From positions 1 to 64,000 of the forward strand of contig NZ_JAKLTR010000005.1 in assembly GCF_022012415.1 (NCBI RefSeq): 64,000 nt of DNA. Direction: 5' to 3'. Origin of the DNA: Terrimonas ginsenosidimutans (GTDB lineage Bacteria > Bacteroidota > Bacteroidia > Chitinophagales > Chitinophagaceae). Under the pieces are notes generated by a model. It made no database searches, was not told the DNA's origin, and saw only the letters and a list, made by a program, of their open reading frames with translations. Each line of letters starts with the position of its first letter. Position 1 is the first letter of the stretch. Below, piece by piece: positions 14,416 to 63,701 of this stretch. A program made the position numbers and the translations under genes.

Positions 14416-14566
14416 AGGGAATCGGGTGGTTTTGGAGGGGGTAAGGGGAAAGTTTTTTAGGGGTAGGTCGGTAGGGCGCTTGTACTTTTTGATCTGACGC
14501 AAAAAAGAAGCGGAAATAGCCTGCCCGCGCCAGGCCACCGCGTGTTAAAATGGGTGAAGGAGGTTT

Positions 14567-14638
14567 TTTCGACAGGAGCGTCGAAAGGCTCTTTTTTGCC
14601 GGCGGGCAAGGCGCTCTTTTTCGAGGGGTTGCCTCGAA
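14567..14638. repeat. Left outer palindromic flank of foldback repeat copy 1
   Basis: Three nested blocks are visible: a TTCGAC...GTCGAA palindrome (about 14569-14585), the GCCGGCGGGCAAGGCG block (14598-14613), and the hairpin TTCGAGGGGTTGCCTCGAA (14620-14638), which abuts the 58-bp terminal repeat. Each has an inverted counterpart on the other side at 15274-15352, so the palindromic arrangement extends beyond the terminal repeats to about 785 bp. Confidence 0.7.
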
Positions 14639-15273
14639 GACTCCGTTTACTTTTTTTGCCTTGATGCAAAAAAAGTAACAAAAAAAGATCAAGGCTGGGA
14701 AAAACTGGCTAAAAATGGGAGGATGTCACCTGCACCAAAAAAACTCGCCCGTCCAGGTTTAGGATTGAATGGTGTGTTGGGCTCAGACAGTTTTTGGCGC
14801 CTTCGCACACCTGCGGTGTGGCTCAGACGGTGCCAGCCTCCCATTTTCTTAACGCCATTTTTTCCAAGGCCGGGGGCGTTGAGAGAGGAGGATTCGGTTG
14901 CGAGGAATATTCGTTATAACTCAGTAGCTGTTTCATAATTTGAAAATGGTACTCTTTCTATTCTATACGTTTGTAATAAGAGAACAGAAAACCTGCTAGA
15001 ACCGTATGGTTACAATCCTGTCGAGGCCTTCTGCCCGCTTTAAGAGCGGCGGCCTAGCGCAAATGGCGTTAAAAAAATTATGGGCGTAACCGACGAGCCG
15101 AAGGCGAGGGCGCTTAAATATTGTCTGAGCCAACACGCCAATCAATCCCAAACACTCCTCCGGCGAGTTTATTTTAGTGCCAGGTGCAGCCCATAATTTT
15201 TAGCCATTTGCGCGTAGCCTTGATCTTTTTTTGTTACTTTTTTTGCATCAAGGCAAAAAAAGTAAACGGAGTC
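14639..15273 (+). repeat. Foldback repeat element, copy 1 (635 bp)
   Basis: The ends 14639-14696 and 15216-15273 are perfect 58-bp inverted repeats. Inside are two hairpin-forming arms, A (14697-14865) and B (15057-15213), facing each other across a spacer of about 190 bp. In arm A the ends GGGAAAAACTGGC and GCCATTTTTTCC pair; in arm B GCGCAAATGGC and GCCATTTGCGC pair. Both arms share a core that includes AACTCGCC, a GGATTGA(A/T)TGG stretch and a CTCAGACA stretch. Short open frames inside have no protein-like features. The element sits between carB and a small-protein gene. The family is unknown to me; it could be a non-autonomous mobile element or a structured RNA repeat. Confidence 0.85.
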
Positions 15274-15352
15274 TTTCGACCTCACCTCGGAAAAAAACGC
15301 CTTGCCCGCCGGCAAAAAAGTAAACGGACCCTTCGACCTCCCGTCGAAAAAC
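15274..15352. repeat. Right outer palindromic flank of foldback repeat copy 1
   Basis: It mirrors the left flank: an imperfect TTCGACCTCACCTCGGAA hairpin (15275-15292), CGCCTTGCCCGCCGGC (15298-15313), and the palindrome TTCGACCTCCCGTCGAA (15332-15348). The same series is found at window positions 1-75. The following 180 bp up to the terminator at 15536 hold nothing I can identify. Confidence 0.7.
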
Positions 15353-62911: not shown

Positions 62912-62951
62912 GCCCGGCGGGCAAAGCGCTTTTTTTCGACGGGAGGTCGAA
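62912..62951. repeat. Left outer palindromic flank of foldback repeat copy 2
   Basis: The GCCCGGCGGGCAAAGCGC block (62912-62929) and the palindrome TTCGACGGGAGGTCGAA (62935-62951), which abuts the terminal repeat, match the flanking blocks of copy 1. Confidence 0.7.
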
Positions 62952-63610
62952 GACTCTGTTTACTTTTTTTGCCTTGATGCAAAAAAAGTAACAAAAAAAG
63001 ATCAAGGCTACGCGCAAATAGCCAGCCCCGCACTCGATGCGGGGGCTAAAAATTATGGGCTGCGCCTGGCACTAAAATAAACTCGCCGGAGGAGGGTTTG
63101 GGGTTGATTGGCGTGCTGGCTCAGACAATATTTTAGCGCCCTCGCCTTCGGCTCGTCGGTTACGCCCATAATTTTTTTAACGCCATTTGCGCTAGGCCGG
63201 CCCCTCTTAAAGCGGGGAGAAGGCCTTGACAGGATTGTAACCTTACAGTTCTAGCAGGTTTTCTGTTCTCTTATTACAAACGTATAAATAGAAAGAGTAC
63301 CATTTTCAAATTATGATACAGCAACTGAGTTACAACGAATCATCTTCGCAACCGAATCCTCCTCTCTCAACGCCCCCGGCCTTGGAAAAAATGGCGTTAA
63401 GAAAATGGGAGGCTGGCACCGTCTGAGTCACACCGCAGGTGTGCGAAGGCGCCAAAAACTGTCTGAGCCCAACACGCCAATCAATCCTAAACCTGGACGG
63501 GCGAGTTTTTTTGGTGCAGGTGACATCCTCCCATTTTTAGCCATTTTTTCCCAGCCTTGATCTTTTTTTGTTACTTTTTTTGCATCAAGGCAAAAAAAGT
63601 AAACGGAGTC
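62952..63610 (-). repeat. Foldback repeat element, copy 2 (659 bp), inverted relative to copy 1
   Basis: The reverse complement of this interval follows copy 1 (14639-15273) along its full length with scattered differences. The terminal inverted repeats are 62952-63009 and 63553-63610 with a single mismatch. Arm B lies on the left and arm A on the right. It is 24 bp longer than copy 1, and this difference is accounted for by one insertion at 63020-63043 in arm B. Small open frames inside are not protein-like. It lies between the VanZ gene and the anti-sigma factor gene, about 48 kb from copy 1. Confidence 0.88.
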
Positions 63611-63628
63611 TTTCGACCTCCCGTCGAA
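63611..63628. repeat. Right outer palindrome of foldback repeat copy 2
   Basis: TTCGACCTCCCGTCGAA follows the terminal repeat directly after one T, as at other ends of the element. Beyond it (63629-63701) I see no further repeat blocks and no gene. Confidence 0.7.
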
Positions 63629-63701
63629 AAAAAGAGCATTGCTTCGGGCAAACACCCCATCGAATGAATAATCACACTTAAAAACAACGGCTCCACAAAC
63701 A

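Follow-up and report, generated by a model that had tools for sequence, protein, structure and literature searches.

Among described systems, the closest to the element reported here are triple-helix H-type pseudoknots, integron attC arrays, the REP/BIME/REPIN sequences with their RAYT genes, and the BrickBuilt MITE of Porphyromonas gingivalis. Triple-helix H-type pseudoknots are found in telomerase RNA, in the ToxI antitoxin RNA and in the SAM-II and preQ1-II riboswitches, and the triple-helix RNA ends known are mostly rare devices with a protective or catalytic role. Integron attC arrays are clusters of co-oriented folded sites. A REP is 20–40 bp long (PMC3733652), and the report on BrickBuilt describes 12-bp terminal inverted repeats (TIRs) like those of IS5-family elements together with 23-nt repeats (PMC4596501).

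The present element is REPIN-like in distribution: it is intergenic, non-coding and folded, occurs as singlets, inverted doublets and clusters, and varies in copy number among relatives. Its module is, however, several times longer than a REP, it ends in a pseudoknot capable of forming a triple helix, unlike a REPIN, and it does not lie beside the RAYT genes examined, three of which adjoin other palindromes. The link to RAYT genes that defines REPINs thus fails as far as tested. With the known triple-helix pseudoknots the element shares a loop strand that follows a helix rich in A-U; here the covariation is exact. It differs from them in that the pseudoknot is the 3' terminus of a multi-copy repeat, dispersed and with no consistent neighbour gene. 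Like BrickBuilt, it is non-coding and has inverted ends, tandem repeats and a copy number in the range of ~10–20; the available part of that report mentions stem loops and no pseudoknot (PMC4596501), whereas the element described here is pseudoknot-ended.

The window analysed is a stretch of 64,000 nucleotides at the start of a contig of Terrimonas ginsenosidimutans. It carries two copies of the unit in opposite orientation, copy 1 at 14639–15273 and copy 2 at 62952–63610, which match over the entire unit with 93% identity, in agreement with the preliminary description. That description also gave each copy 58-bp TIRs, perfect in copy 1; indeed, 58 of 58 bases match in copy 1 (60 if the repeat is lengthened by 2 on each side), and copy 2 has one mismatch in the first 58 bases. 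Past these bases both halves of the unit remain diverged inverted repeats that make up modules of 220–230 nt, and most of the "58-bp terminal repeat" is the 3'-terminal H-type pseudoknot of each module. Two inverted, multi-copy repeats were therefore seen correctly, but a foldback element with 58-bp TIRs is an incomplete picture, as it misses the two outward-facing modules with their pseudoknot ends. No credible protein gene had been found in the unit, which holds: the longest stop-to-stop stretch is 99 codons, and the modules vary in the manner of a folded nucleic acid.

In copy 1, module A occupies 14643–14872, with the minus strand as the folded strand and the 3' end on the left (assigned by consensus fold and covariation). 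Its 3'-terminal pseudoknot, at 14644–14695 on the minus strand, is matched by R1, a covariance model of the 50-nt pseudoknot end. The core (14873–15049) is variable among the copies aligned. Module B (15050–15269, by consensus fold) has the plus strand as its folded strand and its 3' end on the right, with an R1-matched pseudoknot at 15217–15268 on the plus strand. Both are type I modules, as are all modules in the window. In copy 2, the alignment of 18 copies places module B on the minus strand at 62956–63199 (R1 match to the pseudoknot at 62957–63008), the core at 63200–63377, and module A on the plus strand at 63378–63606 (R1 match at 63554–63605).

Beyond these ends the element continues into arrays of hairpin units, ~57 bp each, that mirror one another. 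The left array of copy 1 (14563–14638; inverted repeat I10) consists of inward hairpin units with the hairpins TTGCC-GGCG-GGCAA and TCGAGG..CCTCGA, and is mirrored by the right array at 15274–15352, which is recognisable by its sequence, inverted repeat and unit signature. Copy 2 has an array unit on its left (62914–62951; the same three features) and on its right a hairpin (63611–63646; inverted repeat I12) that falls below the unit signature. Around the 18 full-length copies found in the genome, a simple signature detects 24 units on the left, 29 on the right and 0 in the opposite orientation, and only 3 of the 36 flanks (two on the left, one on the right) are without a unit. The hairpin stems of these units vary in matched pairs, e.g. 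TCGAC...GTCGA, TCGAGG...CCTCGA and TCGATG...CATCGA. At the left edge of the window, where traces of a third copy had been reported, a trace of the repeat is present, but it amounts to just one array unit (10–90, by unit signature), which belongs to another copy and lies where the contig ends. Since base 1 of the window is base 1 of the contig (C45), a repeat of this kind is probably where the assembly broke off. To the left of copy 1, at 14480–14560, the eye can make out what may be a degraded module end (GTACTTTTTGATCTGACGCAAAAAAG).

A wider search for the unit, proposed in the preliminary description as a check, returned 18 copies of full length, together with numerous partial matches, in the genome of the organism itself (7,144,125 bases in 64 contigs), as well as modules in the relatives searched. 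The number 18 is a lower bound because 11 further matches stop within 21 bases of a contig end, and the repeat probably accounts for many of the assembly breaks in this genome. Together with 54 matches to the end model in 7.14 Mb, the full-length and partial copies exclude a chance origin. The full-length copies are 84–100% identical to copy 1, and all 18 have a single layout of module A, core and module B. The core, ~177 bp between the outward-facing modules, differs in sequence from copy to copy, and inspection of the alignment by eye showed no promoter common to the 18 cores.

Each module combines the 3'-terminal H-type pseudoknot with a long hairpin, in which GGCGTTAAGAAAATT and AATTTTTAGCC are the strands close to the base. 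Covariation shows this arrangement to be the predicted fold of a single strand. The test set contained 22 modules (19 from relatives, 3 from the organism's own genome) out of 67 found by sequence motifs with pairing ignored; of those from other genomes, L034, L047, L059 and the second modules of L041 and L051 were left out because of doubtful ends or near-duplicates. In this pairing-blind set, 95.7% of the cells in 35 pairs, which include both pseudoknot stems, are paired, and 18 of the 35 pairs show changes on both sides. None of 500 shuffled controls was as high on any of five covariation measures. Sliding the partners by 1–3 columns lowers pairing to at most 55.6%, a comparison that favours the counted structure because this structure was derived from an overlapping first set, with many sequences in both sets. 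That earlier set (21/22 non-redundant modules) had given 96.0% pairing, 21 of 36 pairs changed on both sides, and 38 G-U against 5 A-C combinations; its ends had been picked because the two pseudoknot stems, and in part the outer helix, were paired in them, hence the recount on pairing-blind modules. For 21 type I modules, likewise found through stem pairing, the consensus fold has 30 pairs, 20 of them with compensating changes.

The pseudoknot can also be followed with a search pattern that ignores the far strand of its stem 1. That strand, TCAAG, lies within 40 nt in 95 of the 114 pattern matches listed, compared with 4% in shuffled sequence, and the variable base of stem 1 is paired in 91 of these 95 (48 T-A and 43 C-G). 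At two positions left free by the pattern, the second helix is paired in 113 and 112 of the 114 matches listed. The 19 matches without the far strand imply that some are degenerate or unrelated.

Read along the favoured strand, the end consists of the 5' strand of stem 1, a linker, the 5' strand of stem 2, the 3' strand of stem 1, which serves as the loop of stem 2, and the 3' strand of stem 2. The linker crosses the second helix, is pyrimidine-rich and mostly ends in G. In 183 of 199 ends it is a mirror image, both by length and by the order of A and G, of the purine tract in stem 2, compared with a mean of 48 and a maximum of 66 when linkers are dealt among the ends at random; another 11 keep the mirror rule and miss the length rule, and 5 break the mirror rule. 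Scored in the base-triple register with the base next to stem 1 left out, 194 linkers match in 200 ends, which were found by the two stems alone, represent 103 distinct helix–linker strings and include later loci from the organism's own genome. Among 37 tracts that contain G, the mirror register alone fits 18, both registers fit 14, neither fits 5, and the direct register alone fits 0; a first count, in which the G before the stem was taken as internal, had yielded 11 mirror, 13 direct and 16 undiscriminating, and was repeated without the last base. With a linker that runs parallel to the purine strand and matches it at each base, a U.A-U / C+.G-C major-groove triplex can form on the pyrimidine-linker strand at the 3' end of the module. 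The choice of strand matters because the opposite strand would give a purine triplex. Two interlocked helices and a loop strand that matches the purine strand, all traced by covariation, are what is expected of an H-type triple helix, and we consider this predicted structure to be the firm result of the analysis.

A structure of this kind argues against a MITE of a cut-and-paste (DDE) transposon, in which the 58 bp would be ordinary terminal inverted repeats. The inverted ends, the lack of a gene and the many copies are all as a MITE would have them. However, selection on internal pairing and base triples is unexpected for TIRs recognised as a duplex, and elsewhere the module also occurs without a nearby partner end. 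The preliminary description would have yielded to a transposase-bearing parent with the same ends or to a lack of further copies; copies abound, and no transposase-bearing copy was noticed in the loci read. A MITE is thus very improbable.

Folding energies favour the pyrimidine-linker strand in 19 of the 22 modules, including 18 of the 19 from relatives; among those from the organism's own genome, module B of L016 favours the predicted strand, and module A of L001 and module B of L004 have no preference for it. On this strand, G-U combinations outnumber A-C combinations by 34 to 5 in the 22 modules and by 17 to 5 (p 0.017) when one near-fixed G-U column is removed. It is chiefly this tolerance of G-U pairs that points to RNA rather than single-stranded DNA, in which the same pairs and triples could also form. 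The element probably acts as RNA.

Relatives of the element are widespread. A search of the same family, which scored two candidates per genome and so provides a lower bound, matched the unit or module in at least 102 of 294 genomes, the organism's own included. Many of the relatives fetched are single modules with identical end types and differing insides, and 22 mutually dissimilar modules range from 162 to 269 nt in length. When each species was represented by one genome, a pattern scan found at least 114 stretches, some of them in cultured environmental strains such as Foetidibacter luteolus YG09 and Ferruginibacter paludis CECT 8366. Among the 80 matches listed, 76 belong to Bacteroidota according to their record titles, 3 are labelled Desulfobacterota/Deltaproteobacteria (2 of them in one assembly) and 1 is from an unclassified bacterium; genera among the matches listed include Chitinophaga, Sphingobacterium, Faecalibacter, Tannerella and Marinilabilia. 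Judging by these matches, related modules, single or paired, are present across Bacteroidota. A single type of pseudoknot end is combined with different upstream domains: when 167 ends were sorted by a crude and permissive motif criterion, 93 fell into type I and 26 into type II, and 48 stayed unsorted. An open frame ends nearby at 36 of the 167 ends with no shared protein seen by eye, and the idea that one of the upstream types is the end of a gene was dropped. In several modules (L232:13900-14600, L063) another palindrome, like TCCCGATAGCTATCGGGA, interrupts the pseudoknot. The exact end pattern is carried by just 3 viral contigs, so phages do not look like the main carriers, and a search of plasmid and phage records with the 635-bp unit itself produced no DNA match.

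Database comparisons provide no name for the element. The window has no match to any of 4227 Rfam families at gathering level, and a permissive Rfam 15 search of 21 related loci (11 at E ≤ 1 and 10 at E ≤ 0.5) gave none at gathering score; the 7 sub-threshold matches in related loci are all to unrelated families. No tRNA or tmRNA was found in the window. No description of the element was found in the open literature, the scope of a search to which most subscription papers are external.

The number of R1 matches per genome ranges from 0 to 54. The organism's own genome contains 54 sites and the sole congener compared contains 1; R1 matches occur in 9 of the 24 nearest-group genomes (own included), with 0 in the other 15, and in nine further genomes, picked because earlier searches had matched them, there are 4 to 30 per genome. 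Genomes without an R1 match may still hold diverged modules, e.g. G006, with none by R1 and a weak match in the family search. At the site of copy 1, the congener has kept the gene order, and its interval is ~220 bp versus 1170 bp and is without the element. The corresponding interval for copy 2 is ~108 bp versus 2385 bp, again without the element, from which it follows that other DNA differs there too. The congener's single R1 match lies elsewhere than both window sites, and its single module (in an interval of ~281 bp) is absent from the matching place (~76 bp) in the genome of T. ginsenosidimutans. Intergenic DNA has diverged at the matching sites, which hides exact insertion ends and target duplications. 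At the place of copy 1 the congener has a different long palindrome (CACAAAGACGACGAAGGCCACAAAG...; L251, G001:C4:202900-204100).

Elements are found mostly between genes. In long loci, 139 of 147 distinct elements are outside ORFs of at least 110 codons, and 8 are inside. The gene upstream of the RNA is co-directional with it in 74 of the 112 elements that have both neighbours; both neighbours share its strand in 48 of the 112 and neither does in 19. In 47 of 71 loci the RNA strand is the C-rich one (p 0.009); because local skew also tracks gene direction, no conclusion about a replication-strand bias is drawn. A host 3'-UTR or regulatory element, such as an mRNA stabiliser or processing site, that spread by recombination and duplication instead of transposition would account for this placement outside ORFs and on the strand of the upstream gene, and also for the strong selection on structure seen as covariation. 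It is at odds with the spread from 54 matches to 1 inside a single genus and the lack of any in 15 of the 24 relatives searched, with the many similar copies inside one genome, and with the loci inspected by eye, in which no consistent neighbouring gene was seen. We therefore regard a host regulatory element as unlikely. As far as comparison of sequences can show, copies are dispersed, lie mostly outside genes, vary strongly in number and are missing from the matching congener sites. The many copies, the 0 to 54 matches among relatives and the absence at congener sites point to a mobile-like history, and there is good support for regarding the element as a dispersed repeat that is non-autonomous.

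In the nine chosen genomes, neighbouring ends no more than 700 bp apart are outward in 8 cases, inward in 1 and on the same strand in 9, and of the 33 at distances of 0.7–10 kb, 27 share a strand. Local duplication, as opposed to jumping, may have produced such co-directional clusters. Folded sites that cluster in one orientation between genes are reminiscent of integron attC arrays; unlike these, clusters of the present element occur at several places of one chromosome (G254). One cluster comprises 13 module ends on one strand within ~56 kb (G094:C3:255000-325000, L228–L231). Among its 20 typed proteins, 9 match a T9SS sorting domain, 8 of them above the cut-off. An integron-like array was considered for this cluster and set aside: it is surrounded by secreted proteins with T9SS tails, and no integrase was found among the 20 ORFs typed of 76. 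The co-oriented clusters of G254 (L232, L233) are located amid HNH, AAA, subtilase, RelA/SpoT and HEPN-nucleotidyltransferase genes (8 typed), neighbourhoods that appear to be organised as in defence islands.

A gene-less element that moves would need a helper, which was sought in two protein families, RVT_1 and Y1_Tnp, in 18 carrier and 15 non-carrier genomes; no general helper was found. Neither the reverse transcriptase (RT) class nor the Y1 class looks like one, because each is absent from some carriers and present in genomes without matches. A rare, diverged or other enzyme is possible.

The Y1 family was of interest because the element could be a giant REPIN, i.e. an outward-facing REP/REPIN-type pair that a RAYT (TnpA-REP, Y1) mobilises in the form of folded single-stranded DNA. 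Singlets, inverted doublets and clusters are organised as in REPs, and 16 of the 18 carrier genomes have a Y1_Tnp match. Three Y1 genes (in G254, G094 and G008) are ~2–3.4 kb from a pseudoknot, a nearness taken from coordinates that may be due to chance. A study of Bacteroidetes RAYTs reports atypical secondary structures beside subclass 2.6 (PMC6006769). On the other hand, Y1_Tnp (E ≤ 0.001) is missing from 2 of the 18 carriers, G141 with 30 R1 matches and G296 with 4, and Y1 genes are present in 10 of the 15 genomes without R1 matches. None of 31 Y1 loci fetched (of 88 matches; 21 in carriers) has a pseudoknot within ~1.5 kb, and the three nearest Y1 genes have other short palindromes next to them, on either flank in G254 and on a single flank in G094 and in G008. 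The RAYT-driven reading is hence unlikely.

Alternatively, the element could be a SINE-like retroelement, its RNA being the template of a reverse transcriptase with affinity for the 3' pseudoknot, in the way that telomerase makes use of a pseudoknot with a triple helix. In favour of this, the folded strand has conserved boundaries with the structured end on its 3' side. There is one retron-like RT in the organism's own genome, and in G141 a type VI retron-like RT is located between modules. However, an RVT_1 match is absent from 9 of the 18 carriers, including G014, G254, G094 and G240 with 16–26 matches, RTs are about equally frequent in genomes with matches (9/18) and without (7/15), and both RTs that were typed best match defence retron models. 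We consider this retroelement reading rather improbable. The RT of the organism's own genome (L083:955-2424, G000:C63) has retron type XIII as its best PADLOC model. For the RT of G141 (L239:9315-10386; C1 ~4877314-4878385), which has a small ORF adjoining, the best model is retron type VI; this RT was taken as cargo and not as the helper. Modules may thus flank defence cargo.

The preliminary description had offered a mobile element or a structured RNA. Support was found for each option, and the two are not exclusive: the history is mobile-like, and base pairs and base triples covary as in a folded single strand. Our joint reading, which we think is probably correct though with considerable reservation, is that of a non-coding, non-autonomous dispersed element of two outward-facing modules of ~220 nt, acting as an RNA with a triplex 3' end that is used for copying. 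The most likely mechanism, inferred from the comparisons above, is one in which the triple-helix end both caps the RNA and provides a handle for copying. The functional form would be an RNA transcribed with or beside co-directional genes. Its triple-helix knot would block 3'-5' exonucleases, mark the 3' end and stabilise the RNA, and an enzyme would use the same pseudoknot end to copy the element into new sites. Once copied, modules would come together in pairs and clusters and acquire hairpin arrays, the state seen in the genome of T. ginsenosidimutans. A broader proposal, that these elements form a phylum-wide and previously undescribed class of gene-less mobile RNAs, with several types of upstream domain and a triplex 3' end that protects the RNA and serves an enzyme as a copying handle, is put forward tentatively and is open to considerable doubt.

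In this element, a predicted triple-helix end tips a dispersed repeat found across a phylum, with all three strands covarying. If the element acts as RNA, it would offer many natural variants from which to learn what rules base triples obey and how bacteria protect 3' ends. Movement, if it occurs, would point to a copying enzyme not yet known. In either case, annotators gain a family to mask or name.
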